NCBI RefSeq assembly: GCF_020991085.1
Contig: NZ_CP087719.1
Coordinates: 930,001-994,000 of the forward strand
Direction of reading: 5' to 3'
DNA: 64,000 nucleotides
Source of the DNA: Roseomonas sp. OT10
Lineage (GTDB): Bacteria; Pseudomonadota; Alphaproteobacteria; Acetobacterales; Acetobacteraceae
The translations under genes and the position numbers were made by a program. The notes beneath the pieces were generated by a model that was not told the DNA's origin, made no database searches, and worked only from the letters and a program-made list of their open reading frames with translations. This document shows, piece by piece, positions 9,413 through 60,185 of this stretch; positions within the stretch are counted from its first letter, which is position 1, and the number at the start of each line of letters is the position of its first letter.

Positions 9413-10926
9413 CGGCGGGCCCTGCGGGGGGCGCCTCGGCCGCCGCCTTCCCCGGCATCCCCGCCGGCCAGCGGGAGGCCGCGGCGCTCTGCGCCCGGCT
9501 GACCGGGGCGGCGCAGCCGGTGGAGACGCATAACTCCGCCGTCTTCGTCGGGCCGGACCGCGTGCTGAAGCTGAAGAAGGCGGTCGATCTCGGCTTCCTG
9601 GACTTCACCACCCTGGCGGCGCGCGAGCGCTTCTGCCGCCGCGAGCTGGAGATCAACACCCCCGCCGCGCCGGAGGTCTACCGCACCGTCCATGCCGTCA
9701 CCCGCGGCGCCGACGGCACGCTCGCCCTCGATGGCGCCGGCGAGCCGGTGGACTGGGTGCTGGAGATGGCCCCCCTGCCGCAGGACGGCTTCCTCGGCGG
9801 CGTGCTGGCCGGCGGCGGCGGCGGCCCGGCGCTGCTCGACGCGCTGGGCGACATGGTGGCGGCGCTGCACGCGGCCCAGCCGGTGGCATCGGGCGTGGAC
9901 GTGCCGGCCTCCCTGCACGGGCGGGTGGAGGGCGACCTGCGCTCCGCCCTCTCGGCCGGCCTGCCGGAGTCGCGGATGCGCGCGCTGGCGGCGGCGCAGC
10001 ACGGCTGGATCGACGCGCATGCGCCCTGGCTCGCGGCGCGCGGCGCGGCGGACTTCGTGCGCCGTTGCCATGGCGACCTGCATCCGGGGAACATCGTGCT
10101 GTGGCGCGGCGCGCCGCTCGCCTTCGACGCGTTGGAGTTCGACGAGTCGATGGCGACCATCGACACCGGCTACGACCTCGCCTTCCTGCTGATGGAGCTG
10201 GACCGGGGCCCCGGCCGCGCCGCGGCGAACCGCGTGCTGGGACGCACCGTCGCGCGCAACGGCGATGCCGCGCTGGTCGGCGGGCTGCCGCTGTGGCTCT
10301 CGCTGCGCGCGCTGGTGCGGGCGCATATCCGCGCCCGCACCGGGCAGGACGGGCTGCCCTGGCTCGATGCCTCGGAAGGCTATCTCCGCCCGGTGCGACC
10401 GCGCCTCGTCGCCGTGGGCGGGTTGCAGGGCACCGGCAAGACCTGGCTCGCCCGCGCCCTGGCGCCGGGGATCGGCGCCGCCCCGGGCGCGCTGCACCTG
10501 CGCAGCGACGAGATCCGCAAGCGCCTCGCCGGCGTCGCGCCGGAAACCCGCCTGCCGCCCGAGGCCTACACGCCGGAGGCCGGCGCGGCGGTGCAGGCGG
10601 AACTGCTGCGGCTGGCGCGCGAGTCGCTGGCGCTGGGGCATTCCGTGATGGCCGACGCCACCTTCCGCGAACCGGCGGCGCGGGCGGCGCTCGCCGCGCT
10701 GGCGCGCGACTCCGGCGTGCCCTTCCAGGGGATCTGGCTGCAGGCCCCGGCGGAGGTGCTGCGCGCGCGGCTGGCGGAGCGCCGCGGCGATGCCTCGGAC
10801 GCCGATGCCGCGGTCATGGAGCAGGCGGCTCAGCGCGATCCGGGGCCGGTGGACTGGGCATGCCTGGACGCCTCGGCTGATCCGCGTCCCGCCGCGCTTG
10901 CGCTCCTGGCCGCACCTGTGTGCTAG
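9409..10926 (+). CDS. Bifunctional aminoglycoside-phosphotransferase-like kinase / P-loop ATPase
   Basis: The N-terminal half (about residues 30-310) is APH/choline-kinase-like, with HGDLHPGNIVLW as catalytic loop and FDALEFDE as the metal-binding segment. The C-terminal half carries a Walker A motif GLQGTGKTWLA near residue 345 and resembles zeta-toxin/AAA-type small-molecule kinases. Such fusions are common in proteobacteria and mostly annotated as bifunctional APH/ATP-binding proteins; the substrate is unknown and there is no direct sign of antibiotic resistance. TTG 9409 overlaps the pdxH stop. A universal stress protein gene follows after 33 bases. Confidence 0.88.
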   Translation: MTAGPAGGASAAAFPGIPAGQREAAALCARLTGAAQPVETHNSAVFVGPDRVLKLKKAVDLGFLDFTTLAARERFCRRELEINTPAAPEVYRTVHAVTRGADGTLALDGAGEPVDWVLEMAPLPQDGFLGGVLAGGGGGPALLDALGDMVAALHAAQPVASGVDVPASLHGRVEGDLRSALSAGLPESRMRALAAAQHGWIDAHAPWLAARGAADFVRRCHGDLHPGNIVLWRGAPLAFDALEFDESMATIDTGYDLAFLLMELDRGPGRAAANRVLGRTVARNGDAALVGGLPLWLSLRALVRAHIRARTGQDGLPWLDASEGYLRPVRPRLVAVGGLQGTGKTWLARALAPGIGAAPGALHLRSDEIRKRLAGVAPETRLPPEAYTPEAGAAVQAELLRLARESLALGHSVMADATFREPAARAALAALARDSGVPFQGIWLQAPAEVLRARLAERRGDASDADAAVMEQAAQRDPGPVDWACLDASADPRPAALALLAAPVC

Positions 10927-11924: not shown

Positions 11925-13376
11925 TCACGCCTGCTTGCCGCGCAGCGGCGGGGCGACGACGTCCTTCGGGATCGGGCAGGCATAGGCCCGCCCGCCCGTG
12001 CGATGCTTCAGCTCCGCCTTGGCGCGCTCCAGCAGCTCCGACTCGCGGAAGGCGTCCAGCGCCGTGGCGGCCATCGCCTTGGCCGCCTGGACCATGCCCT
12101 TGTGGGCGGCCGGGCTCTTGCCCTGCGCCACCGCCTGCCAGGTGTGGAAGGGCGTGCCGATCGCCCAGGTCGCCCCCCAGCACTGCACCACCGGCACGAT
12201 CTGGCTGACATCGCCGACATCGGTGGAGCCGCTGCCGGGCAGGGTGGTGCCGTCGAAGGGCAGCACGCCCTCGTGCAGCGGCTGCGCCCCCACCTCCGGC
12301 GCGGCGCCGACGGTGGCGGTGCTGCTGGCGATGTCCTCCTCGCTCAGCGTCGCGCGGATGGCTTCGGCGAAGGCGCGGTCGGCGGCGTCGAAGGCGGGGG
12401 CGCCGAGGTGCTGGAGGTTCTGGTGCATGCGCATCTCCAGCACCGTGTTGGGCACGGTCTCGGAGCAGGCCTTGTCCACCTCCATCTCCCAGCGCGTGCC
12501 GGTCATGATGGCCGCGCCCTCGGCGCAGGCCTTCACCCGCTCGAACAGCGCCTGGGCCTGGGCCACCTTCGGGCCGCGGATCAGGTAGAGCACCTCCGCT
12601 TCCGCCTGCACCACGTTGGGCGAGTTCCCGCCGCTGTTGGTGATGGCGTAGTGGACGCGGCAATCCAGCGGCATGTGCTCGCGCAGGTAGTTGACGCCGA
12701 CGTTCATCAGCTCGACTGCGTCCAGCGCGGACCGCCCCAGCCAGGGCGAGCCGGCGGCGTGCGAGGCGCGGCCGCGGAAGCGGAAATAGACCTGGAAATT
12801 GGCCATCGACGCGCTGGACATCACGCTGCTGACCACGCCGGGGTGCCAGCAGATCGCGGCGTCGAGGTCGTCGAACACCCCCTCCCGCGCCATGAAGGTC
12901 TTGCCCGAGCCGCCCTCCTCGCCGGGGCAGCCGTAGTAGCGCACCGTGCCCTTCGCCCCGCTGGCGCGCAGGGCGTCGCGCGCGGCGACGGCGGCCAGCA
13001 TCGCGCCCGCGCCCAGCAGGTTGTGGCCGCAGCCATGGCCGGTGGCGCCCGGGGTGGCGGTGCGCGGCTCGGCCACGCCCGCCTCCTGGCTCAGCCCGGC
13101 CAGCGCGTCGAACTCGCCCAGGAAGCCGATCACCGGCCCGCCCTCGCCGCTCTCCGCCACGAAGGCGGTGGGGATGCCGGCGACGTCGCGCGTCACCCGG
13201 AAGCCGGCGGCCTCCATCTGCGCGATCTGCTCCTCGACGGATTCGTGCTCCAGGAAGCGCAGCTCGGCATGGCCCCAGATACGGTCGCTCATCGCGACGT
13301 AGTCGGGGCTCAGCGCCTCCACCTCCGCCGAGAGGCGGTCGAGTTCGAGCGGGTCGTTGCGGGTGATGCTGTCCAT
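11925..13376 (-). CDS. M20 family amidohydrolase, AbgB-like
   Basis: A metal-dependent amidohydrolase of the p-aminobenzoyl-glutamate hydrolase (AbgB)/M20D type. The metal-ligand motif GATGHGCGHN is followed by the YGCPGEEGGSGKTFMAREG block with the catalytic glutamates and by CWHPG. ATG 13376 is preceded by GGAAAGGG, giving 483 residues, the AbgB size. Real substrates in this family vary (p-aminobenzoyl-glutamate, indole-3-acetyl-amino acids, N-acyl amino acids), so the exact reaction is open. The oxidoreductase upstream on the same strand ends 44 bases before the start. Confidence 0.9.
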   Translation of the reverse strand: MDSITRNDPLELDRLSAEVEALSPDYVAMSDRIWGHAELRFLEHESVEEQIAQMEAAGFRVTRDVAGIPTAFVAESGEGGPVIGFLGEFDALAGLSQEAGVAEPRTATPGATGHGCGHNLLGAGAMLAAVAARDALRASGAKGTVRYYGCPGEEGGSGKTFMAREGVFDDLDAAICWHPGVVSSVMSSASMANFQVYFRFRGRASHAAGSPWLGRSALDAVELMNVGVNYLREHMPLDCRVHYAITNSGGNSPNVVQAEAEVLYLIRGPKVAQAQALFERVKACAEGAAIMTGTRWEMEVDKACSETVPNTVLEMRMHQNLQHLGAPAFDAADRAFAEAIRATLSEEDIASSTATVGAAPEVGAQPLHEGVLPFDGTTLPGSGSTDVGDVSQIVPVVQCWGATWAIGTPFHTWQAVAQGKSPAAHKGMVQAAKAMAATALDAFRESELLERAKAELKHRTGGRAYACPIPKDVVAPPLRGKQA

Positions 13377-13420
13377 GATCCCTTTCCGCCGCCGGTCCAC
13401 CCGGCGGTGCCTTTCCTCCG

Positions 13421-14422
13421 TCAGTCGATCGCCACGATCAGCTTGCCGAAGTTCTTCCCGCCCAGCAGGCCGAGGAAGGCGTCCGGCGCCTTCTCCAGCC
13501 CCTGGACGACATCCTCGCGGTACTGCAGCGCGCCCTCGCGCAGCCAGCGCGCCCCGGTGCGCCGCCATTCGGCGAAGGCGTCCGGGTGGTCCATCACGAT
13601 GAAGCCGCGCAGCGACAGGCGCTTGCGCACCACCTGCATCAGGCTCGGCCCCGGCGCGGGCGGGCGAGTGTTGTACTCCGCCACCATGCCGCAGAAGGCG
13701 ACGCGGCCGAAGTCACGCAGCAGCGGCCAGACGGCGTGCTGCACCGCCCCGCCGACATTCTCGAAATAGACGTCGATCCCCTCCGGGCAGGCGGCGGCCA
13801 GGCGGGCGGGGAAGTCCTCCGCCCGATGGTCCACGCCGTCGTCGAAGCCCAGCGTGTCCGTCACGAAGGCGCATTTCTCCGGCCCGCCGGCGATGCCCAC
13901 CACCCGCGCGCCCATCCGCTTCGCGATCTGGCCCGCGACCGAGCCCACCGCGCCGGAGGCCGCCGAGACGACGAAGGTCTCGCCCGGCCTCGGCACGGCG
14001 ATGCGGGTGGTGCCGACCCAGGCGGTGGTGCCCGGCATGCCCAGCACGCCCAGCCAGGCGGTCAGCGGCGCGGCCTCCGGGTCCAGCTTCAGCAGCCCGC
14101 CCGCCGGCACGGCGGAGAGGCGCTGCCAGCCCTGGCCGCCCAGCACCCAGTCGCCGGGGGCGAAGCCCGGCACGGTGGAGGCGACGACCTGCCCGACGCT
14201 CTGCCCCTGCATCACCTCGCCCAGTCCGACCGCGGCGGCGTAGGACTTCGCGTCGTCCATCCGCCCACGCATGTAGGGGTCGAGCGAGAGGTAGCGGTGC
14301 CGCACCAGCACCTCGCCCGGAGCCATGTCCGGCGGCGCCGTCTCCACGAGGCTGAAGTCGCCCGGCTGCGGCGCCCCTTCCGGCCGGCGGGCCAGGCGGA
14401 TCTGCAGGTTGGTCTCGTTCAT
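13421..14422 (-). CDS. NADP-dependent oxidoreductase (medium-chain, CurA/leukotriene-B4 dehydrogenase type)
   Basis: A zinc-independent medium-chain reductase of 333 residues that reduces activated double bonds of enones with NADPH. The family pattern YLSLDPYMRGRM, the GMPGTTAW motif, and the nucleotide-binding GAVGSVAGQIAKRMGARVVG are all present. There are no zinc-ligand cysteines. GAGGCGG precedes the ATG. It is on the same strand as, and just upstream of, the M20 amidohydrolase and diverges from mobB across about 110 bp. The physiological substrate is unknown. Confidence 0.9.
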   Translation of the reverse strand: MNETNLQIRLARRPEGAPQPGDFSLVETAPPDMAPGEVLVRHRYLSLDPYMRGRMDDAKSYAAAVGLGEVMQGQSVGQVVASTVPGFAPGDWVLGGQGWQRLSAVPAGGLLKLDPEAAPLTAWLGVLGMPGTTAWVGTTRIAVPRPGETFVVSAASGAVGSVAGQIAKRMGARVVGIAGGPEKCAFVTDTLGFDDGVDHRAEDFPARLAAACPEGIDVYFENVGGAVQHAVWPLLRDFGRVAFCGMVAEYNTRPPAPGPSLMQVVRKRLSLRGFIVMDHPDAFAEWRRTGARWLREGALQYREDVVQGLEKAPDAFLGLLGGKNFGKLIVAID

Positions 14423-14534: not shown

Positions 14535-15065
14535 ATGGTCCTGACGAGGCAAGCACCCCCTCCGCGCGTCCTCGGCCTGGCCGGCTGGAGCGGGGCGGGC
14601 AAGACGACGCTGCTGACGCGGCTGATCCCCTGCCTGCGCGGGCGGGGGTTCACGGTGTCCACCGTCAAGCACGCGCATCACCGGTTCGACCTGGACCAGC
14701 CCGGCAAGGACAGCCACCGCCACCGTGAGGCCGGGGCGGAGCAGGTGCTGGTCGCCTCCGCCACGCGCTGGGCGCTGATGACCGAGCTGCGCGGGGCGCC
14801 GGAGCCGGACCTCGCCTTCCTGCTCGCCCGCCTGTCGCCGGCCGACCTGGTGCTGGTGGAAGGGTTCAAGCGCGACGGCCATCCGAAGATCGAGGTCCAC
14901 CGCGCCGCCAACGGCAAGCCCTGGCTGCACCCGGAGGACCCCGCCATCGTCGCCCTCGCCGCCGACGCGCCGCCCCCGTCCGGTGCCCCGCCCTGGGTGC
15001 CGCTGGACGCGGTGGAGCGGGTGGCCGACCTCGTGCTGGAGCATGCCCGGCCATGGCCCAACTGA
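14535..15065 (+). CDS. mobB: Molybdopterin-guanine dinucleotide biosynthesis protein B
   Basis: MobB is a GTP-binding accessory protein that helps MobA attach GMP to molybdopterin. The P-loop GWSGAGKTTLLTRL lies near residue 18, and TVKHAHHRFDLDQPGKDSHRHREAGA is the typical switch region followed by LVLVEGFK. ATG 14535 gives 176 residues, the usual size. It overlaps moeA by 13 bases, so both are made from one transcript. The presence of this pair implies molybdenum enzymes elsewhere in the genome. Confidence 0.94.
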   Translation: MVLTRQAPPPRVLGLAGWSGAGKTTLLTRLIPCLRGRGFTVSTVKHAHHRFDLDQPGKDSHRHREAGAEQVLVASATRWALMTELRGAPEPDLAFLLARLSPADLVLVEGFKRDGHPKIEVHRAANGKPWLHPEDPAIVALAADAPPPSGAPPWVPLDAVERVADLVLEHARPWPN

Positions 15066-16297
15066 GGGACGACTGCTTCGCCGGGGGCGAGGCGGTCCTG
15101 GGGGTGGAGGAGGCCGCGGCCCGGGTCGCCGCCGGCGTCCTGCCGTTGCCGGGGGAGGAGCGGGTGGCGCTGCGCGCGGCGCGCGGCCGCGTGCTGGCGC
15201 GCAACCTCATCGCCGGGCAGCACCTGCCGCCCTTCTTCAACAGCGCCGTGGACGGCTATGCCTTCGCCCATGCCGACCTGCGCCCCGACGGCGCCTGGCT
15301 GCGCCTCGCCGGGCGGGCGGTGGCCGGGCAGGCCGCCCCCGCCCTGGCGCGGGGGCAGGCGCTGCGGGTGATGACCGGCGCCCCCATGCCGGTGGGGGCG
15401 GACACGGTGATAATGCAGGAGGATGCGGCGCTGGACGGCGGCACGCTGCGCCTGCCCCCCGGCCTGCCGCGCGGCGCCAATTGCCGCCCGGCCGGGGAGG
15501 ACGTGGCGCGCGGGGCCATCGCCCTGCCGAAGGGGCGCCGCCTCGGCCCGGCGGAGATCGGGCTGGCCGCCGCGCTGGGCCTCGCCGGCCTGTCGGTGAC
15601 GCCGCGCCCGCGGGTGGGCGTGTTCAGCACGGGCAACGAGTTGGTCTCGCCCGGGAGGACGCTGGGGGGCGCCCGCATCTTCGACAGCAACCGCTTCGCC
15701 CTGCTGGCCCTGCTGGACGGGCTGCCGGTGGAGGCGGTGGATCTCGGCATCCTGCGCGACCGGCCGGGGGAGCTGGCCGGCGCCATCGCCGCGGCGGCCG
15801 CCTCCCACGACCTGCTGATCACCTCGGGCGGGGTGAGCGTCGGCGAGGAGGACCACACCCGCGCCGCGATCGAGGCAGCGGGGTCGCTGGCCTTCTGGCG
15901 GCTGGCCATCAAGCCGGGCAAGGCGGCGGCGATGGGGGTGGTCGGCGGCACGCCCGTCCTCGGCCTGCCGGGCAACCCGGTGGCCGCCATCGTCACCTTC
16001 CTGCACCTGGCCCGGCCGCTGATCCTGCGGCTGGCGGGCGCCGCCCCCGCGCCGCTGCCGCGCTTCCCGGCCGTGGCGGATTTCGCCCACCGCAAGAAGC
16101 CCGGCCGGCGGGAATACCTGCGCGTCTCCCTGGTCCCCGGCGGGACGGTGCCGCTGGCCCGCAAGGAGGCGCGCGACGGGGCGGGGCTGCTCTCCTCCCT
16201 GACCCGCGCGGACGCCTTCGCCGAGCTGGCAGAGGACCGGGAGTCGGTGGAACCGGGCGAGGCCGTCACCGTCCTGCCCTTCGCCGCGCTGCTCTGA
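15053..16297 (+). CDS. moeA: Molybdopterin molybdenumtransferase
   Basis: MoeA inserts molybdate into adenylated molybdopterin. The 414-residue protein has FFNSAVDGYAF (domain opening), MTGAPMPVGADTVIMQED, the GNELVSPG loop, TSGGVSVGEEDH and GLPGNPVAAIVTF, all hallmark segments. It overlaps mobB at its start. Its TGA stop (16295-16297) is also the left flanking triplet of the dispersed repeat copy A, so the element begins on the base after the stop codon. Confidence 0.96.
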   Translation: MAQLRDDCFAGGEAVLGVEEAAARVAAGVLPLPGEERVALRAARGRVLARNLIAGQHLPPFFNSAVDGYAFAHADLRPDGAWLRLAGRAVAGQAAPALARGQALRVMTGAPMPVGADTVIMQEDAALDGGTLRLPPGLPRGANCRPAGEDVARGAIALPKGRRLGPAEIGLAAALGLAGLSVTPRPRVGVFSTGNELVSPGRTLGGARIFDSNRFALLALLDGLPVEAVDLGILRDRPGELAGAIAAAAASHDLLITSGGVSVGEEDHTRAAIEAAGSLAFWRLAIKPGKAAAMGVVGGTPVLGLPGNPVAAIVTFLHLARPLILRLAGAAPAPLPRFPAVADFAHRKKPGRREYLRVSLVPGGTVPLARKEARDGAGLLSSLTRADAFAELAEDRESVEPGEAVTVLPFAALL

Positions 16298-16716
16298 TAC
16301 CGGCGTCGGGATGATCTGACCCGTGTTGTGCTGTCGTGGTCGGGCGGCGGCACTGGGAGGGGACGCCGTCCCCTCCCAGACCCTCCCCTGCCGGGGCCAC
16401 AAGCGGGCCCCGGTCCCCGCTGAGAGTTGGTTCTAAGCGGTGGGCGTCAGCCTGCGGGCTGAACCCTGACGGAACACGGACAGGCGGGACTCTGAAAAAG
16501 CATCACAGGCGTCAGCGCGGGCGGACACCGTACCCGCCGAGGAGCCATGCTCCTCGGCGTCTCGACCCCGTCGCAGGCTGTCCCGCGGCAGCGCCTCTCG
16601 GGTCCAGGGCCCGCAGGGTCCTGGCGGAGTGGGGGTACGGGGGCGAGGCAGAGCCTTGCCCCCGGGGAACGGGCGCACCCTATGCCGCCACGGATCAACG
16701 CATCCCGCCGTCCGTA
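16298..16716 (+). mobile_element. Dispersed MITE-like repeat, copy A (intact)
   Basis: A 419-bp copy of a five-member repeat family. The left end reads TACCGGCGTCGGGATG and the reverse complement of the right end TACGGACGGCGGGATG, 13 of 16 identical. It is flanked on both sides by TGA (16295-16297 and 16717-16719), the left one being the moeA stop. Inside are a 12-bp-stem triloop hairpin (16353-16379), an 8-bp hairpin in the GCCGGGGCC region, a 10-bp-stem CAT-loop hairpin (16536-16558) and a GGGGGCGAGGC hairpin. No transposase is encoded. It lies between convergent genes and may terminate both. Confidence 0.82.
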
Positions 16717-16743
16717 TGACAGGGGGCGCGGGCGGCGTGGCGC

Positions 16744-17424
16744 TCAGCGCGCTCCGGCGCGCCTGTTCTCCAGCCGCGACAGCACGCGCACCAGCGGCCA
16801 GAGCAGCAGGAAGTACGCGACGGCGGCCGCCACGATGGGCGAGGCGTTGTAGGTCACGCTCTGGGCCTGCCGGGCCTGGAACAGCAGCTCCGGCAGCGCC
16901 ACCACCGAGGCGATGGAGGTGAGCTTCACCACCTCCAGCACGTTGCCCAGCAGGTCGGGCAGCACGTTGCGCGCTGCCTGCGGCAGCACGACCAGGGCCA
17001 TGCCCTGCCAGGGGCGCAGGCCGAGGGCGCGGGCGGCCTCGGACTGGCCTCTGGGCACGGAATCCAGGCCGGCGCGCAGCACCTCGCCGAAATAGGCGCC
17101 GGTGTTGAGCAGGAAGGCGATGGCGACGGCCGCCCAGGCGCTGACCTCCAGCCCGGCGAAGGGCAGGCCGGCATAGACCAGCACCAGCAGCACCAGCGGC
17201 GGCAGGGCGCGGAACAGGTCCACCCAGGCGGCGAGCGGCCAGCGCACCCAGCGGCTTTCCGCCCGCGACAGCAGCGCCAGCGCCAGCCCGGCGAGGAGGC
17301 CGAGCGGCACCACCAGCAGCGAAAGCAGCAGGGTCTGCTGCAGCCCCATCCACAGGATGGGCATCGCCTGCCGGACGATGCCGAGGTCCAGGAAGGCGGC
17401 GCGGAAATCCTCGAGGGTCATCAT
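16744..17424 (-). CDS. Amino acid ABC transporter permease (His/Glu type)
   Basis: A 226-residue inner-membrane permease of the polar amino-acid uptake family, with about five membrane segments. The EAA loop that contacts the ATPase is present as SEAARALGLRPWQGMALVVLPQA. The N-terminus carries the typical GLQQTLLLSLLVVPLGLLAG segment. It lies 13 bases after a second permease and downstream of a solute-binding protein, forming a three-gene unit. No ATP-binding gene is adjacent; repeat copy A follows instead. Start from tandem ATGs at 17424 and 17421 without a strong ribosome-binding site. Confidence 0.92.
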   Translation of the reverse strand: MMTLEDFRAAFLDLGIVRQAMPILWMGLQQTLLLSLLVVPLGLLAGLALALLSRAESRWVRWPLAAWVDLFRALPPLVLLVLVYAGLPFAGLEVSAWAAVAIAFLLNTGAYFGEVLRAGLDSVPRGQSEAARALGLRPWQGMALVVLPQAARNVLPDLLGNVLEVVKLTSIASVVALPELLFQARQAQSVTYNASPIVAAAVAYFLLLWPLVRVLSRLENRRAGAR

Positions 17425-17437
17425 CGGACCGGGGCCG

Positions 17438-18136
17438 TCACCGCGTGCGCACCGCGTAGCGCGCCTCGATCCAGCGGCCGAGGCAGACGACCGGGATGAA
17501 CAGCAGCAGATAGGCCGCCGCGCCGAGGATCAGCGGCGAGGGGTTGGCGGCGAAGGCCACGGCGGATTGCGAGGCGCCAAGGATCTCCGACACGCCGGCG
17601 ACGCTGCCCAGGGCGGTGTTCTTGGTGATGGCGATGGTGCGGTTGGTCAGCGGCGGGATGACCATCCGCACCGCCTGCGGCAGCACCACGAGGAACAGCA
17701 CCGGGACGGGGCGCAGGCCGAGCGCCGCCGCTGCCTCCGGCTGGCCGCGCGGGACAGCGGTGATGCCCGCCCAGAAGATCTCCTCGGCGAAGGCCATCAG
17801 GACCAGCGTCAGCGCCAGCCAGGTGGCGGCGAAGCCGGACAGCTCCGCCCCCGCCGCCGGCAGGCCGAAGAAGAACAGCACCACCAGCACCAGCGGCGGC
17901 ACGGCGCGGAACAGGTCGACGAGGAAGAGGATGGGCAGCGCCATCCAGCGCCCGCCGCGCCGGTCCGTCAGCAGGGCGCGCAGCACCGCCAGCGCCAGGC
18001 CCAGCGCCAAGCCGCACGTCACCACCAGCGCCGCCAGCTCCACCGTCACCACGAAGCCGGCGGCGATGGCGGGCAGGTAGGTCGCCATCACCGCCCCGTT
18101 CAGGAAGGTGAAGGCGAAGTTCTCCCAGCCGCTCAA
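17438..18136 (-). CDS. Amino acid ABC transporter permease (second subunit)
   Basis: Partner permease of the gene downstream. The EAA loop reads PEAAAALGLRPVPVLFLVVLPQA, and hydrophobic segments cover about residues 20-225. The start is uncertain: the upstream solute-binding gene ends at 18148, and TTG 18136 (opening MSGWENFAFTFLNG, 232 residues) is the first plausible codon after it. The PRGQPEAA motif is almost identical to the sister subunit's, suggesting gene duplication. Membrane-embedded, expected to form a heterodimer with the other permease. Confidence 0.88.
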   Translation of the reverse strand: MSGWENFAFTFLNGAVMATYLPAIAAGFVVTVELAALVVTCGLALGLALAVLRALLTDRRGGRWMALPILFLVDLFRAVPPLVLVVLFFFGLPAAGAELSGFAATWLALTLVLMAFAEEIFWAGITAVPRGQPEAAAALGLRPVPVLFLVVLPQAVRMVIPPLTNRTIAITKNTALGSVAGVSEILGASQSAVAFAANPSPLILGAAAYLLLFIPVVCLGRWIEARYAVRTR

Positions 18137-20780: not shown

Positions 20781-20903
20781 GGGCTTGGCTCACGGCAGGA
20801 AGGGTGAGCCAAGACAAGGCCAGCCGCCCACGCCGCCGCGTCCTCCGATCGGGCGACCCCGGCGGCCCGCGGTCCCGGCGGCCTTCCCGGACCGTCCGGC
20901 TCA

Positions 20904-21311
20904 TACCAACGGTGGGATGACCTGACCCGTCGTGTTCGGGCGGCGGACCGGGAGGGGACGCTGTCCCCTCCCAGACCCTCCCCTGCCGGGGCCACAAGCG
21001 GGCCCCGGTCCCCGCTGGGAGTCTGGTGTTGGCGGCTGCCGCCAGCCTGCGGGCTGAACCCTGACGGGGCGCGGACAGGCGGGACTCCAGAATAGCTTTG
21101 AAGGCGTCAGCGAGGGCTGAGGCCGTACCCGCCGAGGAGCATGGCTCCTCGGCGCTGTGACCCCGTCGCAGTCATCTGCGCGGCAGCGCTGATCGGGTCC
21201 AGGGCTCGCAGGGTCCTGGCGGAGTGGGGGTACGGGGGCGAGGCAGCGCCTTGCCCCCGGGCCACGGGCGCACCCCGCGCCGCCATGGATCAACGCATCC
21301 CGCCGTCCGTA
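20904..21311 (-). mobile_element. Dispersed MITE-like repeat, copy B (intact)
   Basis: A 408-bp copy in the same orientation as copy A relative to the window. The left end reads TACCAACGGTGGGATG and the right end (reverse complement) TACGGACGGCGGGATG. TCA flanks both ends (20901-20903 and 21312-21314); the right one is the TGA stop of the endonuclease III homologue on the minus strand. Internal hairpins: GGGAGGGGAC/GTCCCCTCCC with loop GCT (20950-20972) and GCCGAGGAGC/GCTCCTCGGC with loop ATG (21131-21153). No coding capacity is apparent. Confidence 0.82.
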
Positions 21312-22085
21312 TCAAGCGGGCGGCTGTTCCGCCGCGCCGCCGGCCGGGTCCGGGCGCGCCGCCGCCGGGTGCCGCTCCCGTCCGGTCGGGCACAGGTCCA
21401 GCAGGGTGCACCGCCCGCAGGCGGGGTTGCGGAAGAAGCAAACGCGCTGCCCGTGCAGCATCAGCACCTCGTGGTTGTCGTAGACCTGCTGCGCGTCCCA
21501 TTCCGGGGGCAGCATGGCCTCCAGCACCCGGTGCGCCGGTCCCACCGCCAGGCCCGGCGGGATCAGGCCCAGCCGTGCCGCCACGCGATGGTGATGGCTG
21601 TCCACCGGCAGGGCGCGCCGGCGCAGCACGCTGAAGGACAGCACCGCCGCGCTGGTCTTGGGCCCGACGCCCGGCAGGGCCTCCAGCCAGGCCCGCGCCT
21701 CGGGGACCGACAGCTCCGCCAGGTGGTCCAGGCTCAGCCGGCCCTGCCGTTCCGTGATGACGCGCAGCGTCCGTTGCAATGCCGGGGCCTTCGCCTCCGG
21801 CCAGGTGCAGGGGGCGAGCGCCGCCTCCACCGCCGCCACCGGCGCGTCGCGCACCGCCGCCCAGTCCGCGAATCCCTCGCGGAGGTTGCGGAAGGCGCGG
21901 GCGCTGTCGGCGTTGCGGGTGCGGTGGGAGAGCAGGGAGGAAACCAGCTCGTCCAGCGGCTCCAGCGCGTGGAAGTAGCCGATCGGGCAGCGGTAGAGGG
22001 CGCAGAGGCGCGCCTGCACCTCCAGCAGCAGGGCGGGGGCACCGGGCGGCGCGGCCGGGCCTTCCGCATGCGTCGCTCGGGCCAA
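21312..22085 (-). CDS. Endonuclease III homologue (HhH-GPD DNA glycosylase)
   Basis: A base-excision repair glycosylase of the Nth/MutY fold. It has the helix-hairpin-helix LPGVGPKTSAAVL with the catalytic lysine, the catalytic aspartate in VDSHHHRVAARLGL, and the C-terminal four-cysteine iron-sulphur motif with spacing C-x6-C-x2-C-x5-C (CFFRNPACGRCTLLDLC). TTG 22085 is preceded by GGGGAGG, giving 257 residues. It differs enough from standard Nth to be a paralogue. Its TGA stop coincides with the flanking triplet of repeat copy B. Confidence 0.88.
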   Translation of the reverse strand: MARATHAEGPAAPPGAPALLLEVQARLCALYRCPIGYFHALEPLDELVSSLLSHRTRNADSARAFRNLREGFADWAAVRDAPVAAVEAALAPCTWPEAKAPALQRTLRVITERQGRLSLDHLAELSVPEARAWLEALPGVGPKTSAAVLSFSVLRRRALPVDSHHHRVAARLGLIPPGLAVGPAHRVLEAMLPPEWDAQQVYDNHEVLMLHGQRVCFFRNPACGRCTLLDLCPTGRERHPAAARPDPAGGAAEQPPA

Positions 22086-25122: not shown

Positions 25123-25135
25123 CGCGGCGGCCGTC

Positions 25136-25525
25136 GCGCTGTGGTGTTCCGGCGTGGGACCGGGAGGGCACGCCGTCCCCTCCCAGACCCTCCCCTGCCG
25201 GGGCCACAAGCGGGCCCCGGACCCCGCTGGGAGTCTGGTGCTGCGCGGCTGCCGTCAGCCTGCGGGCTGAACCCTGACGGAGCGCGGACAGGCGGGACTC
25301 TAGAATAGCTTCAAAAGCGTCAGCGCGGGCGGACCCCGTACCCGCCGAGGAGCATGGCTCCTCGGCGCTGTGACCCCGTATCCGGCTGTCCCGCGGCAGC
25401 GCCGATCGGGTCCAGGGCCCGCAGGGTCCTGGCGGAGTGGGGGTATCGGGGGCGAGGCAGAGCCTTGCCCCCGGGCCACGGGCGCACCCCGCGCCGGCAC
25501 GGATCGAGGTATCCCGCCGTCCGTA
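25136..25525 (-). mobile_element. Dispersed MITE-like repeat, copy C (left end missing)
   Basis: About 390 bp of the family, lacking roughly the first 30 bases of the left terminus. The right end (reverse complement) is TACGGACGGCGGGATA and is followed by TCA (25526-25528), the TGA stop of the adjacent Bug gene. The 10-bp-stem hairpin with loop ATG is intact (25344-25366); the GGGAGGGCAC hairpin has one mismatch. It occupies almost the whole space between convergent MFS and Bug genes. Confidence 0.8.
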
Positions 25526-26497
25526 TCACTCGATGGCGCGGAAGCCGGTCGCCCGCACCACCTCGGCCCAGCGTGCCGTCTCGTCTCGAATCAGCGTGGC
25601 GAAGGCGGTGCGGCCCTGGCCGGAGACGCGGAAGCCGGCCTCCTGCATCCGCGCGCGCAGTCCCGGCGCGGCCAGGGCGCGCAGGGTCGCGGATTCCAGG
25701 GCTGCCTGCACCGGCTCCGGCGTGGCACGGGGGGCGACCAGGCCGAACCAGGAATGGAAGGAGAGGGCGGGCTGGCCCAGCTCCGCCATGGTCGGCACCT
25801 CGGGCAGCAGCGGCGAGCGCGTGGGGCCGGTGATGGCCAGGGCGCGCAGCCGTCCGGCCTGCACATGCGGCGCCACCAGCGCGACCGAGCCGAACATGCC
25901 CTGGACGTTGTTGTTCAGGATCGCCGTCATGGCGTCGCCGGTGGAGCGGAAGTGCACCGCCTCCGCCTTCAGCCCGGACCCGGCGGCCAGCATGGCCGCG
26001 CCGAAATGCCCCGGCGTGCCGGCCCCGAAGGTGCCCAGGAACAGGCCCGGCTGCGCTGTCGCCCAGGCGAGGTAGGCGGGCAGGTCCCGCGCCGGGACGC
26101 CGGCGGGGACGACGAAGGCGAAGTCGATGGCCGCCACCTCGGCGATCGGGGCGAAGTCGCGCGCCGGGTCGTAGGGGAGGCGGGCATAGGTGCTGGGCGC
26201 CATGGCGAGCTGGCCGACCTCGCCGAGCAGCAGCGTGGTGCCGTCCGGCGCGGCGGTCCGGGCCACCTCCTGCGCGGCGATGGCACCCGCCGCGCCCGGG
26301 CGGTTGTCCACCACCACCCCGGACGGCACGGTCTCCTTCTGCCCGTCCGCCAGCAGCCGGGCGACGACGTCGGGGCCGCTGCCGGGCGGGAAGCCGAGCA
26401 CGAGGCGTACCGGCCGCTCCGGCGGCGCCGCCCGGGCGGAGGCTGCGGACAACAGGGCGAGGCCGGCGAGGGCCGCGCGGCGGGTCGTCTGGGGCAA
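25526..26497 (-). CDS. Tripartite tricarboxylate transporter substrate-binding protein (Bug family)
   Basis: A second Bug receptor with an RR-containing signal peptide (TTRRAALAGLALLSAASARA). Family motifs are VRLVLGFPPGSGPDVVARLL, VVDNRPGAAGAIAAQEVA and APDGTTLLLGE. TTG 26497 is preferred over ATG 26515 because GGAGGA lies between them, nine bases before the TTG, and it yields a clean 323-residue preprotein. A palindrome TATGCTGCATA overlaps the promoter. The TGA stop abuts repeat copy C. The two receptors in this window are diverged and neither has linked TctAB genes. Confidence 0.92.
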   Translation of the reverse strand: MPQTTRRAALAGLALLSAASARAAPPERPVRLVLGFPPGSGPDVVARLLADGQKETVPSGVVVDNRPGAAGAIAAQEVARTAAPDGTTLLLGEVGQLAMAPSTYARLPYDPARDFAPIAEVAAIDFAFVVPAGVPARDLPAYLAWATAQPGLFLGTFGAGTPGHFGAAMLAAGSGLKAEAVHFRSTGDAMTAILNNNVQGMFGSVALVAPHVQAGRLRALAITGPTRSPLLPEVPTMAELGQPALSFHSWFGLVAPRATPEPVQAALESATLRALAAPGLRARMQEAGFRVSGQGRTAFATLIRDETARWAEVVRATGFRAIE

Positions 26498-26522
26498 GGG
26501 AAGCGTCCTCCACATTATTTGT

Positions 26523-37087: not shown

Positions 37088-37927
37088 TCACGCCGCCCGC
37101 GCCCGCCACCCGGCCAGCAGCCCCCGCCGTGGCGCGAAGACCAGCGCCAGCCCGAACAGCCCGGTCAGCGCCAGCACGATGCAGCCGGCGGTCGACGCGT
37201 TGAGGTGGTAGCTGGCCAGGATGCCCAGGGCATTGGCCAGCACGGCGGAGCCGGCGGCGATGGCGGCCACGCGCCCGAAGCGTTCGGCCAGCAGCAGCCC
37301 GATGCAGCCCGGCGTGATCAGCAGCGCCACCACCAGGATCACCCCCACCGACTGCACCCCCGCCACCACGGCACCGGAGAGCAGCGCCAGGAACAGCAGG
37401 TGCAGCCGGTCCGGGTTCAGCCCGATCCCCCGGGCGTGGGTGGGATCGAAGGCCGCCAGGATCAGGTCGCGCCCGAACACCGCCAGCACCGCCAGCGTCG
37501 CGCCGCCGGCGACCAGCGCCTGGACCCGGTCGGCGGGCTCGATGCCCAGGATGTTGCCGAACAGGATATGGGTGATGTGCGCCTCGGTGGTCAGGAAGGC
37601 GAGCAGCACCAGGCCGATGGCGAACATGCCGGTGAAGACCACGCCCAGCGCCGCATCCTCCTTCACCCGGCTGCGCGACTGCACGAAGCCGGCGGCGAGC
37701 GCGCAGACCAGCCCCGCCGCGAAGGCCCCCAGCGCCAGCGGCAGCCCGGCGGCGGAGGCCAGCACCACCCCCGGCAGCACGGCGTGGGAGACGGCGTCGC
37801 CCAGCAGCGACCAGCCCTTCGGCACGATCAGGCAGGAGAGCAGCGCGCAGGCCACCGAGACCACGCTGCCGACCAGCAGCGCGTCGCGCAGGAAATCATG
37901 CGCGAACGGCTCCAGCAGCCCGCTCAT
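37088..37927 (-). CDS. Manganese/zinc ABC transporter permease (SitD/MntB type)
   Basis: A 279-residue ABC-3 family permease with eight predicted membrane helices. Family segments are KGWSLLGDAVSHAVLPGVVLA and FDPTHARGIGLNPD. It overlaps the second permease gene by four bases (ATGA). Last gene of a binding protein-ATPase-permease-permease unit. Linkage to a divergent MntR-like repressor and a palindromic operator argues for manganese; such systems can also take up iron or zinc. Confidence 0.94.
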   Translation of the reverse strand: MSGLLEPFAHDFLRDALLVGSVVSVACALLSCLIVPKGWSLLGDAVSHAVLPGVVLASAAGLPLALGAFAAGLVCALAAGFVQSRSRVKEDAALGVVFTGMFAIGLVLLAFLTTEAHITHILFGNILGIEPADRVQALVAGGATLAVLAVFGRDLILAAFDPTHARGIGLNPDRLHLLFLALLSGAVVAGVQSVGVILVVALLITPGCIGLLLAERFGRVAAIAAGSAVLANALGILASYHLNASTAGCIVLALTGLFGLALVFAPRRGLLAGWRARAA

Positions 37928-38781
37928 GCCACCACCGCCGCCTGGCGCCGCGCCCGCCGGGCGGCGAGCAGCCCGTGGCGCGGCGCCCAGACCAGCACCA
38001 GGGTGAAGACCAGCGCCTGCAGCGCGACGATCACCCCGCCGGTCGAGCCGTCGAGGAAGTAGCTGAGATAGGCCCCCAGCGCCGCCGTGCCCGCGCCCAT
38101 CCCGGCGGCGAGGCCCAGCATCCGCGCGAAGCGGTCGGTCAGCAGGTGCGCAGCCGCCCCCGGCGCCACCAGCATGGCGATCACCAGCACGGCGCCGACG
38201 GTGACCATCGCCGCCACCGCCACCGCCGCCGTCATCGCCAGCAGCAGCATCTGCAACAGGCCGGGGTTCAGCCCGATGGCCCGGGCCTGGGTGGCGTCGA
38301 AGGCCCAGAGCATCAGGTCCCGCCCCCGCAGCGCCAGCAGGGCCAGCACGGCGCCGACGACGATCAGCAACTGGGCGATGTCCTCCGGCGCGATGCCCAG
38401 CACGTTGCCGAACAGGATGGTCCGCAGGCGCAGGTTGCTGGGGTAGAGGCTGAGCAGCACCAGCCCCAGCCCGAAGAAGGCGGTGAAGACCACGCCGATG
38501 GTCGCATCGGCCGGCAGCCGGCTGTGGCGGCGCAGCGCGCCCATCGCCCAGGCTGCCAGCAGCCCGGCGGCGAAGGCCCCCAGCGCGAAGGGCAGCCCCC
38601 AGATCCAGGCCAGCGCCACCCCCGGCACCACGGCGTGGGAGAGCGCGTCGCCCATCAGCGACCAGCCCTTCAGCGCCACGAAGCAGGAGAGCAGCCCGCA
38701 GACTCCGCCGGTCAGCGCGCTGACCCACAGGGCGTTGCGCAGGAACTCGTAGCCGAAGGGCTCCAGCAGCAGCGCCGTCAC
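37924..38781 (-). CDS. Manganese/zinc ABC transporter permease (SitC/MntB type)
   Basis: The second ABC-3 permease, 285 residues, homologous to its neighbour: KGWSLMGDALSHAVVPGVALAW and FDATQARAIGLNPG align with the partner's segments. Two permeases per system, as in SitABCD, suggest a heterodimeric channel. It overlaps the ATPase gene by four bases at its start and its partner by four at its end, so the whole unit is translationally coupled. Confidence 0.94.
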   Translation of the reverse strand: MTALLLEPFGYEFLRNALWVSALTGGVCGLLSCFVALKGWSLMGDALSHAVVPGVALAWIWGLPFALGAFAAGLLAAWAMGALRRHSRLPADATIGVVFTAFFGLGLVLLSLYPSNLRLRTILFGNVLGIAPEDIAQLLIVVGAVLALLALRGRDLMLWAFDATQARAIGLNPGLLQMLLLAMTAAVAVAAMVTVGAVLVIAMLVAPGAAAHLLTDRFARMLGLAAGMGAGTAALGAYLSYFLDGSTGGVIVALQALVFTLVLVWAPRHGLLAARRARRQAAVVA

Positions 38782-40824: not shown

Positions 40825-41346
40825 ATGCCGTCCCGCCCCATCCGCGATCCGGCCCGGATTCGCTCCGCGGTGCCGGCCGACCCCGCGCCCCACCTCCTCC
40901 CGGCCGAGGACGACCAGGCGGCGCGGCATGCCAGCGCCCGGGCCGGCCGTGCCTCCGCGGTGCTGGAGGATTATGTCGAGCTGATCGACGACCTGCTGGC
41001 CGAGGGCGGCGAGGCGCGGCCGACCGACCTGGCCCGCCGCTTCGGCGTCTCCCACGCCACCGCGATCAAGAGCATCGCCCGGCTGAAGGCGCTGGGGCTG
41101 GCGCATTCGCGCCCCTATCGCGGCGTCTTCCTGACCCCCGAGGGCCATGCCCTGGCCGAGCGGGTGCGCGCCCGCCACCGCGTGGTGGTGGACCTGCTCC
41201 TCGCCGTCGGCGTGCCGGCGGAGGTGGCGGAAACCGATGCCGAGGGCATCGAGCACCATGTCAGCGACGCCACCCTAGCCGCCTTCGCCCGCTTCCTGGC
41301 CGGGCCGGGTAGGGGGCCGGGCGATACGGGGCCGGCCGGGAAATAG
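40825..41346 (+). CDS. mntR: Manganese-dependent transcriptional regulator, DtxR family
   Basis: A 173-residue repressor of the MntR type. The winged helix-turn-helix is PTDLARRFGVSHATAIKSIARL, and the dimerisation and metal-binding domain follows with RHRVVVDLLLAVGVPAEVAETDAEGIEHHVSD, which supplies the Glu/His ligands. There is no SH3-like third domain, as expected for MntR. It diverges from the manganese importer across a palindromic operator. Its TAG stop is followed directly by the terminus of repeat copy D. Confidence 0.92.
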   Translation: MPSRPIRDPARIRSAVPADPAPHLLPAEDDQAARHASARAGRASAVLEDYVELIDDLLAEGGEARPTDLARRFGVSHATAIKSIARLKALGLAHSRPYRGVFLTPEGHALAERVRARHRVVVDLLLAVGVPAEVAETDAEGIEHHVSDATLAAFARFLAGPGRGPGDTGPAGK

Positions 41347-41766
41347 TACGGATGGCGGGATGCCCCTTGATCCGTGCCGGCGGGGGGTGCGCCCGTGGCC
41401 CGGGGGCAAGGCTCTGCCTCGCCCCCGGTCCCCCACTCCGCCAGGACCCTGCGGGCCCTGGACCCGATGGGCGCTGCCGCGGGACAGCCTGACACGGGGT
41501 CACAGCGCCGAGGAGCCATGCTCCTCGGCGGGTACGGCCGCAGCACTCGCGGACGCCTTCTGAAGCTTTTCCAGAGTCCCACCTGTCCGCGCTCCGTCAG
41601 GGTTGAGCCCGCAGGCTGACGGCAGCCATGAAGCACCAGATTCCCAGCGGGGACCGGGGCCCGCTTGTGGCCCCGGCAGGGGAGGGTCTGGGAGGGGACG
41701 GCGTCCCCTCCCGGTCCGACGCCAGACCACCACAGCATGACGGGTCAGATCATCCCGACGTCGGTG
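41347..41766 (+). mobile_element. Dispersed MITE-like repeat, copy D (intact, inverted relative to A-C)
   Basis: A 420-bp copy in the opposite orientation to copies A, B and C. Its left end TACGGATGGCGGGATG matches their right ends, and its right end (reverse complement) CACCGACGTCGGGATG matches copy A's left end. The base before it completes the mntR TAG stop (41344-41346); TGA follows at 41767-41769, so no exact flanking duplication remains. Hairpins: GCCGAGGAGC/GCTCCTCGGC with loop CAT (41507-41529), and GGGAGGGGAC/GTCCCCTCCC. Confidence 0.8.
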
Positions 41767-55033: not shown

Positions 55034-58000
55034 CGAGAATTCGGGTTCAGGCGGCGGGCGGATGAGCGACCAGAACGACCAGGATGCGGCCAAGGGCCGG
55101 CTGAGCCTGCGGCCTGGCGGGCGGATGGAGCTTGGCAGCAAGACGGTGGACGCGGGCAGCGTCCGCCAGTCCTTCAGCCATGGCCGCAGCAAGACCGTGC
55201 AGGTCGAGGTGGTGAAGAAGCGGAACCCGGCCCCGGGTGCCGCGGCCGGCGGGGCACGCCCCGCGGCCGCCGGCCCGACCGGGGGCGGTTCCGGCGGCCG
55301 CGCCGCGGGTCCGGGTGGCCGGGCCGGTGGCCCCGCCGCGCGTGGCCCCGCGCCGCAGGCCGGGCGCCCGCTGACCCAGGCGGAGCAGGCCAACCGCCAG
55401 CGCGTGCTGGAGGAGCAGCGCCGCAACGAGCTGCAGCGCCAGCGCGAGGAGCGCGAGCGCCAGGCGCTCATGCTGCGTTCCGCCGCCGAGGAAGCGGCCC
55501 GCCGGGCCGAGGACGAGGCGCGCCAGGCCGAGGAGGCCCGCCGCCAGGCGGCCGAGGACGCCGCGCGCCGTGCCGCCGCCGAGGAGGAGTCGCGCCGTGC
55601 CGCGGCGGCTGCGGCCGCTGCCGCCGCGGCCCGCCCGGCCGCCCCCGAGGCGGCGCCCGAGCCTCCCGCAGCGCCTCCGGCGCGCCCGGCCGCGCCGCCG
55701 CCCGCGCCGATGCAGGCCCGCGCGCCCCAGCGCGACGAATCCGTACGCGAGGATCGCCCGGTCCGTGACGACCGCGGCCCGCGCGACTACGGCCGCGACC
55801 GCGATGCCGGCGGCCCGCCGCGCGGACCGGGCGGCTATGCCCCGCGTCCCGCCGGCGGCGGCTATGGCGCCCGCGCCCCGGGCGGTCCCGGCGGCGGTTA
55901 CGCCCCGCGCGGCCCGGGTGGCCCGGGCGGTGGTGCCGGCGGCGGCTATGGCGCCCGCGGTCCCGGTGGTGGCTCCGGCGGCGGCTATGGCGCCCGCGGT
56001 CCGGGTGGTCCCGGCGGCGGGGGCGGTGGCTACGGTGCTCGCGGCCCGGGTGGTCCGGGTGGCGGCGCCGGTGGTGGCTATGGTGCCCGCGGCCCCGGCG
56101 GCGGTGCCGGTGGCGGCTATGGCGCCCGCGGCCCGGGTGGTCCGGGTGGCGGAGCCGGCGGCGGCTATGGCGCGCGTGGCCCGGGTGGCGGAGCCGGCGG
56201 CCCTGCCGCGCGCCTCTCCCTGACGCCACGTCCCGCCGAGGCGACGGAGGATCCCGATCGTCGCACGCCGCGCCGGCTGGGCCCGCCCGCCGCGCCGTCC
56301 GCGCGCCGGCCGACGCCCACCGCGCCGCGCAAGCCCCCGGTCGGCGCCGACAAGCGCCGCGAGGGCCGCATCGACGTCCAGGCGGCGATCGAGGGCGAGG
56401 ACGACCGGTCCCGCTCCCTCGCCTCCGTCCGCCGCGCCCGCGAGCGCGAGCGGCGGCAGGCGGAGCTGGCGCGCCTGCGCTCGGATGGGGTGAAGGTCGT
56501 CCGCGACGTCGTCATCCCCGACGTCATCACCGTGCAGGAGCTGGCGAACCGCATGGCCGCCCGTGGCGGCGAGGTGGTGAAGGCGCTGTTCCGCATGGGC
56601 GTGATGGCGACGCTGACCCAGTCCATCGACGCCGACACGGCGGAGCTGGTGGTGACCGAGTTCGGCCACCGCGCCCGCCGCGTCTCCGAGTCGGATGTGG
56701 AGCTGGGCCTGGAAGGCGCGCTGGACCAGGACGAGGAGCTGCTGCCGCGTCCGCCGGTCGTGACCATCATGGGCCATGTCGACCACGGCAAGACCTCGCT
56801 GCTCGACGCGCTCCGCAAGACGGACGTGGCGGCGCGCGAGGCGGGCGGCATCACCCAGCACATCGGCGCCTACCAGATCGAGGTGCCGGACGGGACGAAG
56901 GTCACCTTCATCGACACGCCGGGCCACGAGGCCTTCACCGCCATGCGCGCCCGCGGCGCGTCGGTGACGGACATGGTGGTGCTGGTGGTCGCGGCCGATG
57001 ACGGCGTGATGCCCCAGACGGTCGAGGCGATCCGCCACGCCAAGGCGGCGAACGTCCCGCTGATCGTGGCGGTGAACAAGATCGACAAGCCGGGGGTCAA
57101 CCCCGACCGCGTGCGGCAGGAGCTGCTGCAGCACGAGATCGTGGTGGAATCGCTCGGCGGCGAGACGCAGGAGGTCGAGGTCTCCGCGCTCAAGGGCACC
57201 AACCTCGACAAGCTGCTGGAGGCGATCTCCCTGCAGGCCGAGGTGCTGGACCTGCGCGCCAACCCCGACCGCGCCGGCGAGGGCACGGTGATCGAGTCCA
57301 AGCTGGACAAGGGACGCGGCCCGGTGGCCACGGTCCTGGTCCAGAAGGGCACGCTGCGCCAGGGCGACATCGTCGTGGCCGGCACCGAGTGGGGCCGCGT
57401 CCGCGCCCTGGTCGACGACAAGGGCCGCAACGCCAAGGAGGCGCCGCCCTCCCTGCCGGTGGAGATCCTGGGCCTCTCGGGCGTCCCCTCGGCCGGCGAG
57501 AACTTCGTCGCGGTCGAGGATGAGGGCCGGGCGCGCGAGATCTCCGAGTTCCGCCAGCGCAAGCTGCGCGAGAAGCAGGCGGCGGCGCTGGGTGCGGCGC
57601 GCGGCACGCTGAACGAGATGCTGGCCCGCATCCAGGCGGGCGAGCAGAAGGAGGTGGCGGTCGTCGTCAAGGCGGACGTGCAGGGCTCGGCCGAGGCGCT
57701 CGGCGTCACCCTGGCCAAGCTGTCGCGCGACGAGGTCCGGGTCCGCCTGCTGCACAGCGGCGTGGGCCAGATCACCGAGACGGACATCCAGCTCGCCAAG
57801 GCGTCCGACGCCGTGGTGGTGGCCTTCAACGTCCGTGCCACGACCCAGGCCCGCGAGCTGGCGCAGCGCGAGGGCGTGGAGATCCGCTACTACTCGATCA
57901 TCTACGAGGTGGCCGACGACATCGAGAAGCTGGTCAAGGGCAAGCTCGCCCCGATCCAGCGCGAGAAGTTCCTGGGCTACGCGCAGATCCTGCAGGTCTT

Positions 58001-59447: not shown

Positions 59448-59842
59448 GCCAGCCGGAGGAGGAACCCAGCCTCCCCGATGAGGCGCCGCTGATCCGCACC
59501 ATCGCCATGCCGACGGACACCAACCCGTCCGGCGACATCTTCGGCGGCTGGCTGATGGCGCAGATGGACCTGGCCGCCGGCAACGCCGCCGCCCGCCGCG
59601 CCCGCGGCCGCTGCGCCACCGTGGCCGTGGAAGCGATCACCTTCCACTCCCCGGTGAAGGTGGGCGACGAGGTCAGCCTCTATGCCGAAATCCTGAAGGT
59701 CGGCCGCACCTCCCTCCGCATCCGCGTCGAAGCCTGGCGCCGCGAACGACACAGCGACGACAGCAACCGCGTGACCCAGGCGGTCTTCACCTTCGTCGCC
59801 CTGGATTCGACCGGGCGCCCGCGGACCGTGCCGGCGGCGTAG
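59444..59842 (+). CDS. Acyl-CoA thioesterase, YciA-like hotdog fold
   Basis: A 132-residue cytoplasmic acyl-CoA hydrolase. The opening block [33 protein letters not shown] carries the family's aspartate in GDIFGGW and the catalytic helix, and [24 protein letters not shown] is the second signature. It overlaps rbfA by four bases (ATGA), so is translated with it. Its TAG stop is followed within a few bases by repeat copy E. Confidence 0.93.
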
Positions 59843-59844
59843 CG

Positions 59845-60178
59845 CCCGTGGCCCGGGGGCAAGGCTCTGCCTCGCCCCCGATGCCCCCACTCCGCCAGGA
59901 CCCGCTGATCCCCTTTGGGGGCCCTGGACCCGATCGGCGCTGCCGCGGGACAGCCAGACACGGGGTCGAGGCGCCGAGGAGCTTGGCTCCTCGGCGGGAC
60001 CGGCCTCCGCCCTCGCTGGTGTCTTACGGGGCCGGTCATCTCGCCGTCGACATCAGGGTTCAACCCGCAGGCCGATCCCCTGCCACGCAGCGCCAGACTC
60101 CCGCCGGGGTCCGGGGGCCGGCTCGCCCCCGGCGGAGGGGGTATCGGGGGAGGCGGCGCCTCCCCCGGGGAACGGGCG
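59845..60178 (+). mobile_element. Dispersed MITE-like repeat, copy E (diverged, both ends missing)
   Basis: About 330 bp in the same orientation as copy D. It begins inside the family sequence (CGCCCGTGGCCCGGGGGCAA) and lacks both terminal inverted repeats. The 10-bp-stem hairpin is kept but with a new loop TTG (59973-59995), and the motif AGGGTTCAACCCGCAGGC is recognisable. An extra hairpin-forming segment (CCCCTTTGGGGG) is inserted. The copy fills the entire gap between the convergent thioesterase and tyrC stops. Confidence 0.72.
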
Positions 60179-60185
60179 TGCCCCG

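Follow-up and report, generated by a model that had tools for sequence, protein, structure and literature searches.

Non-autonomous DNA transposons (MITEs) of bacteria include, among others, RUP and Correia/NEMIS. An insertion target that coincides with a stop codon is known from IS870, which inserts at CTAG and thereby acquires the stop that ends its ORF; the repeat family described here has such a coincidence in common with it, but in this case it is the stop of the host gene that is duplicated and kept. Bacterial MITEs, of which MITEAba12 (PMC6382973) is an example, are short, non-coding elements in many dispersed copies, with terminal inverted repeats and target duplications. All these features recur in our family, which differs in three respects: (i) the 3-bp duplication, within C(TSA)G, falls on a stop codon in the majority of copies, (ii) near-invariant hairpin stems lie beside decayed ends and (iii) no partner IS was found among the ISs examined.

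The IS1031 group of the IS5 family follows, according to PMC12016507, the rule of a TNA target and a 3-bp direct repeat, and its ends start with GA (GAACCTGTCTAGTATCT). The target and the length of the repeat are common to both groups, whereas the ends of the family studied here start with TAC and its perfect duplications are exclusively TSA. REP/BIME palindromes (PMC3733652), which in REP/RAYT systems lie beside a GTAG or CGTC tag, also form hairpins, occur in many copies and have been proposed to act in transcription termination and in stabilizing mRNA; they are, however, 20-40 bp long, as against 418 bp here, where there are also terminal repeats and duplications, and a search of the genome found no Y1 transposase. 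Among the matches listed in a literature search, judged by their titles and the beginnings of their abstracts, there was no description of this family or of any MITE with a stop codon as its target duplication.

Copies, ends and target duplications

The window, i.e. the whole 64-kb stretch of DNA that was analyzed, lies on contig C1 (5.33 Mb), where it spans 930001-994000; the genome has 5.69 Mb in three contigs. Comparison of the window with itself recovered all five members of the family described in the original prediction, with A, B and C in direct and D and E in inverted orientation (Table 1). A, B and D are full length, C is devoid of its left end and E of both ends. A and B have intact ends and perfect 3-bp duplications (TGA/TGA and TCA/TCA, respectively), while the duplication flanking D (TAG/TGA) is imperfect. 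A stop codon is touched exactly by A, B, C and D. Copy E, with a core identity of 0.86, extends 17 bp into the end of ORF 59444-59842(+) as called, and thus does not adjoin the stop exactly. In line with the prediction that no transposase is encoded, the three ORFs inside or over A and B gave no Pfam match at E≤0.1. The 64-kb window produced no Rfam 15 match at the gathering score, and plasmid and phage collections gave no match.

Table 1. Repeat copies in the window, their flanking triplets and the predicted hairpins of copy A
Feature	Position	Strand	Remarks
Copy A	16298..16716	+	full length, 419 bp; BLAST and profile scan
TGA left of A	16295..16297	+	target duplication; also the stop of ORF 15053-16297(+)
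TGA right of A	16717..16719	+	target duplication
Left terminal inverted repeat of A	16298..16313	+	
Right terminal inverted repeat of A	16701..16716	-	
Hairpin 1 of A	16355..16377		GGGAGGGGAC/GTCCCCTCCC
Hairpin 2 of A	16391..16413		CCGGGGCC/GGCCCCGG
Central hairpin of A	16535..16559		CGCCGAGGAGC, loop CAT, GCTCCTCGGCG
Hairpin of A with G-U pairs	16604..16624		CCAGGGCCC/GGGTCCTGG
Last hairpin of A	16639..16663		GGGGGCGAGGC/GCCTTGCCCCC
Copy B	20904..21311	+	full length, 408 bp
Duplicated TCA of B	20901-20903 and 21312-21314		second TCA is the stop codon of ORF 21312-22085(-)
Copy C	25131..25525	+	left end lost; alignment begins at model position 24
TCA at right end of C	25526-25528		stop codon of ORF 25526-26515(-)
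Copy D	41347..41766	-	full length, right end altered
TAG adjoining D	41344-41346		stop codon of ORF 40825-41346(+)
Copy E	59826..60182	-	diverged form without terminal repeats; profile match, model 38-394

The family is not confined to the window. A BLAST search of the genome with copy A returned 371 first-look candidates. The 40 places that were scored match most of the query at 86-100% identity, and a further 55 among the matches listed are short pieces on the reverse strand. A profile built from 33 copies was then used to scan five 400-kb blocks of C1 together with 353 kb of C2 and C3, a sample amounting to 41% of the genome bases. It gave 110 matches: 108 in the 2.0 Mb of C1, two on C2 (both short of full length) and none on C3. 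From the 108 matches in 2.0 Mb we estimate a total of approximately 290 copies on C1 (5.33 Mb). This agrees with the several hundred copies anticipated on the assumption of uniform density, although the density itself is uneven (25, 6, 19, 27 and 31 matches per block). Convergent gene pairs are nevertheless more numerous (60) in the block with six copies (G000:C1:1600001-2000000) than in any of the other four.

Fifty-eight of the sampled copies are near full length (405-450 bp). Their consensus of 418 bp begins with TAC and carries an imperfect terminal inverted repeat of 27 bp (81%), which is also evident from the composition of 116 ends; the ends read TACSGRCGGCGGGATG. The core identity of the 107 matches with enough core is at least 0.95 in 76 cases, between 0.85 and 0.95 in 12 and lower in 19. 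The copies are 79-92% identical to the consensus and no pair exceeds 89.5%, which indicates that the family is old; there is no sign of recent activity, and the copies presumably no longer move. The end pattern matched 141 times, as against 20 for the reversed control, and in combination with TSA it matched 197 times, as against none in the control and 0-7 in each of 14 congeners. These counts and the BLAST identities exclude a chance repeat. A wider scan of genome contigs, in which near genomes may be missing, placed the end pattern at ten loci of unrelated taxa, which were taken from their titles to be chance matches.

Element ends were fixed by a weight matrix before the outer 3-mers were compared. 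In 27 of the 58 copies the left and right 3-mers agree (TGA/TGA in 18 and TCA/TCA in 9). At shifts of -3, -2, -1, +1 and +2 there was no such case, and at +3 and at +4 there was one each, so that the duplication is specific to a single register. The pairs are direct and not inverted; the outer triplet is therefore not part of the element but a target duplication. In each of the 27 perfect duplications the triplet is TSA (S standing for C or G), and where an end adjoins TSA it is preceded by C in 35 of 42 cases and followed by G in 32 of 45. The flanks of TNA form noted in the original prediction are thus consistent with the IS1031 rule, but are narrower than any TNA. The remaining 31 duplications are imperfect, including four TGA/TCA pairs, which could result from exchange between copies; mismatched triplets in general may stem partly from such exchange or from misplaced ends. 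The view of a mobile, MITE-like family is supported by the terminal repeats, by 3-bp duplications confined to a single register, by the lack of Pfam matches in three ORFs inside or over A and B and by the many dispersed copies. We conclude that this is a transposon-like (MITE) family with the target C(TSA)G.

Position of the copies relative to genes

Two observations go beyond the original prediction, i.e. the placement of copies on stop codons and the special conservation of the hairpin stems (see below). With genes called by a home-made codon-model gene finder, 42 of the 58 copies adjoin a called stop codon exactly (offset 0), 26 of them by their left end and 17 by their right end, with one copy doing so on both sides. 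The stop codon is one half of the duplicated triplet, and the encoded protein is therefore unchanged. As the target supplied the triplet, the in-frame TGA must predate the insertion. Alignments with congeners place gene ends at the same points. Among the matches listed for the gene left of A, six of eight end at query positions 1245-1252, which is the stop codon or at most 7 bp past it (the other two end at 1220 and 1185). Among those listed for the gene right of C, all ten start at 10473-10476, i.e. inside the stop codon or 1 bp ahead of it.

None of the 58 full copies lies inside a called gene. In the sampled chromosome, copies are present in 64 of 244 convergent gaps, i.e. about a quarter, in 38 of 1185 tandem gaps and in 3 of 253 divergent ones. 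The copies thus avoid genes and promoter-side gaps. Around A, B and C the gene order is unlike that of the congeners, in which, in the matches listed, the flanking genes are found at distant or inverted places; the repeats may act as rearrangement points. The family profile gave no match in 19 loci, from 14 congeners, that represent this gene neighbourhood.

Hairpins and their conservation

Five hairpins are predicted in copy A (Table 1), and RNA folding gave z-scores of -6.15 for A and -5.66 for B, with none of 100 shuffles as good. Conservation was measured in an alignment of 56 copies, two of the 58 having been omitted because they cross a 20-kb locus border. The pairwise identity is 0.989 at G/C sites and 0.997 at A/T sites in the stems, 0.91 and 0.83 in the loops, 0.83 and 0.76 in the linkers, and 0.75 and 0.68 in the terminal repeats, which are the least conserved part of the element. 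Since sites of both kinds show it, the conservation of the stems is not explained by base composition. Only 26 substitutions were counted in the 92 × 56 = 5152 stem sites (0.5%).

The duplicated triplet provides a clock, because both of its halves are identical at insertion. The halves now differ at 16% of sites in the 32 copies with clean ends (identity 0.84) and at 29% in the 40 stop-anchored copies (identity 0.71). This clock is rough: linker identity bears no relation to whether the triplet is intact (P = 0.34), and that of the terminal repeats bears hardly any (P = 0.08), so that part of the variation was apparently inherited from diverse sources. Near-invariant stems set against differing triplets suggest either a function kept after insertion or homogenisation. 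Covariation among copies was considered as structural support and rejected, as changes on both sides were seen within the genome in 2 of 82 predicted pairs; the case for the predicted structure is its invariance and its change between species.

The central stem (CGCCGAGGAGC/GCTCCTCGGCG) is present in 56 of the 58 copies, with variable loops. In the 56 aligned copies, the central 3-base loop (16546-16548 in A) reads ATG in 27, CAT in 19, CAA in 8 and GTG in 2; ATG is the reverse complement of CAT, which looks like an inversion of the loop within the palindrome. Approximately 28 extra bases, with a possible stem of their own (ATCGACGC/GCGTCGAT), were counted by eye in the loop of hairpin 1 in 14 of the 56 copies.

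A BLAST search of 60 genomes with copy B yielded matches, mostly short, in ten: the own genome, 8 of the 14 congeners and one other member of the family of bacteria. Related repeats of approximately 320 bp occur in three congeners (G012, G003 and G004). In G012, 239 first-look candidates were obtained, 40 were scored and 30 fetched, and 23 of these 30 share the central stem CGCCGGAGAGC/GCTCTCCGGCG, again with variable loops. The central stem, fixed within each of the two species, is therefore changed on both sides between them. No TAC ends were seen in the G012 copies, which are mostly intergenic, often 10-50 bp from a stop.

Source of mobility and rival explanations

The genome gave 34 matches to PF01609 and 26 to PF13340, the Pfam models of IS5-type transposases. 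TAC ends were absent from the IS5-type loci (L100-L155) in a scan for inverted repeats and duplications, which allowed 3 mismatches in 18 and also missed the ends of a resident 12-copy IS. They were equally absent from the 11 clusters of repeated 0.6-6-kb segments present in 2.35 Mb, and a direct comparison of the MITE ends with those of seven ISs found none alike. The transposase of the 12-copy IS (PF01609 and PF13340) is a 273-aa ORF in a repeated unit of 962 bp. This element inserts at C(TNA)G with 3-bp TNA repeats, read by eye at 12 of 12 junction pairs (TGA 5, TCA 3, TAA 2, TTA 2), and its ends (GAGCCTGATCCG...) start with GA (GAGCCTGATCCGAAATT), unlike the TAC of the MITE family. The IS1031/IS427-type driver suggested in the original prediction fits the target and the duplication, but no IS with TAC ends was encountered among those examined. 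For this reason, an IS1031-like enzyme is deduced from the target alone, and we give it an even chance. A further candidate for the driver, at 12932-13993 of locus L086 (G000:C1:3732932-3733993), was rejected; its ORF looks like a broken, truncated IS5-type transposase gene adjoining a damaged copy of the element. No Y1 transposase (PF01797) was detected in the genome, while the control search gave matches in 5 of 14 genomes, and a RAYT origin is consequently unsupported.

The past mobility of the family is very probable. As an explanation of the whole, including the enzyme and the retained hairpins, a MITE is probable, although less so than mobility as such. According to this explanation, a DDE transposase that chose its targets in the manner of the IS1031 group, and that may since have been lost, would have moved the element in trans by 3-bp staggered cuts. 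In a chromosome of approximately 73% G+C, most C(TSA)G sites outside genes would be stop codons, and surviving insertions would be expected to sit there. The copies would be old and their movement ended, and the remaining hairpins would be kept by selection at gene ends, where their most plausible role would be that of two-way transcription stops or of transcript 3′-end structures between convergent genes. That the hairpins have retained a function is a tentative proposal, to which we assign somewhat less than an even chance. On this basis the repeats probably represent a new MITE family, mobile in the past and of unusual and instructive target habit, in which a function of the stems is plausible.

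The absence of any transposon, i.e. an inherited intergenic structure (REP/BIME-like or terminator-like) flanked by TSA by chance, would agree with the intergenic, stop-proximal position of the related repeats in congeners and with their lack of TAC ends. It is contradicted by the duplications at a single register, by the 197 combinations of TSA and TAC ends set against 0-7 in the congeners, by the absence of profile matches at the congener loci examined and by the lack of the Y1 transposase typical of REP/RAYT systems, all of which make it highly improbable. It is unlikely, too, that the family was driven by the resident 12-copy IS through recognition of the CCTGAYCCG motif that lies inward in the MITE ends. 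Apart from the C(TNA)G target, the two have CCTGA(T/C)CCG in common, at position 4 of the IS and position 18 of the MITE, with a nominal P of 0.03 that is not significant given 14 comparisons. Moreover, the cut point would fall 14 bp further out, and the IS copies are near-identical (99.9-100%) whereas those of the MITE are old.

The mobile family being accepted, it may be asked whether the enzyme, or a partner of it, has an active preference for stop codons or the ends of transcripts that goes beyond C(TSA)G. From TSA sites alone, a null that omits stop codons overlapping another gene (323 TSA sites), 26.5% of copies would be expected at stops, well below the 42 of 58 observed, and the excess appears in convergent gaps (30/42; null 0.48, P = 0.002) as well as in tandem ones (12/15; null 0.40, P = 0.002). 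It vanishes once sites are weighted by their C/G context and genes are excluded (40.6 of 58 expected, P = 0.40), under a null that is generous because its weights were derived from the copies themselves. Such sensing of stop codons is hence not needed, and we regard it as improbable. Of the exact CTSAG sites in copy-free gaps, 284 of 411 are stop codons, and in the simplest reading the C(TSA)G motif, together with the removal of harmful insertions, leaves the survivors on stop codons. A short target preference can thus make insertion almost harmless, since the motif outside genes is mostly a stop and the duplication rebuilds that stop.

A stronger competitor, as credible in our view as retained function itself, keeps the same mobile family but ascribes the uniformity of the stems to gene conversion between copies or to constraint on a source element instead of selection at the sites. 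It accounts for stems that vary between genomes and are uniform inside each of them, for the independence of linker identity from the duplication state, and for linker variants that, as judged by eye, recur among the copies in differing combinations. Under long conversion tracts, however, conservation would not be expected to change as sharply as it does from a stem to its loop or to the adjacent linker. The terminal repeats, which a transposase needs, also speak against it, being the least conserved part.

Should the MITE explanation with selected stems be correct, stop codons may have served as a safe harbour through which hundreds of gene ends were seeded with a multi-hairpin module. The host would then keep the modules, by purifying selection, as gene-end punctuation (two-way termination or protection of transcript 3′ ends), each species of the genus having its own co-evolved stem set. 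This extension is speculative and rather unlikely in full. The duplicated triplet, used as a clock, makes the family well suited to the question of whether remnants of transposons undergo domestication in bulk at the ends of bacterial genes.

Three other repeats were noticed in the window. The stretches 37308-37850 and 38159-38701, which are 851 bp apart and 72-83% identical, are probably neighbouring duplicated genes or domains. Positions 16970-17223 and 17667-17920, 697 bp apart and 72-76% identical, are paralogous and lie inside minus-strand genes. Finally, ten overlapping repeat copies with spacings that are multiples of 3 occupy positions 55791-56228 inside ORF 55062-58256, and are predicted to constitute a repetitive protein region.
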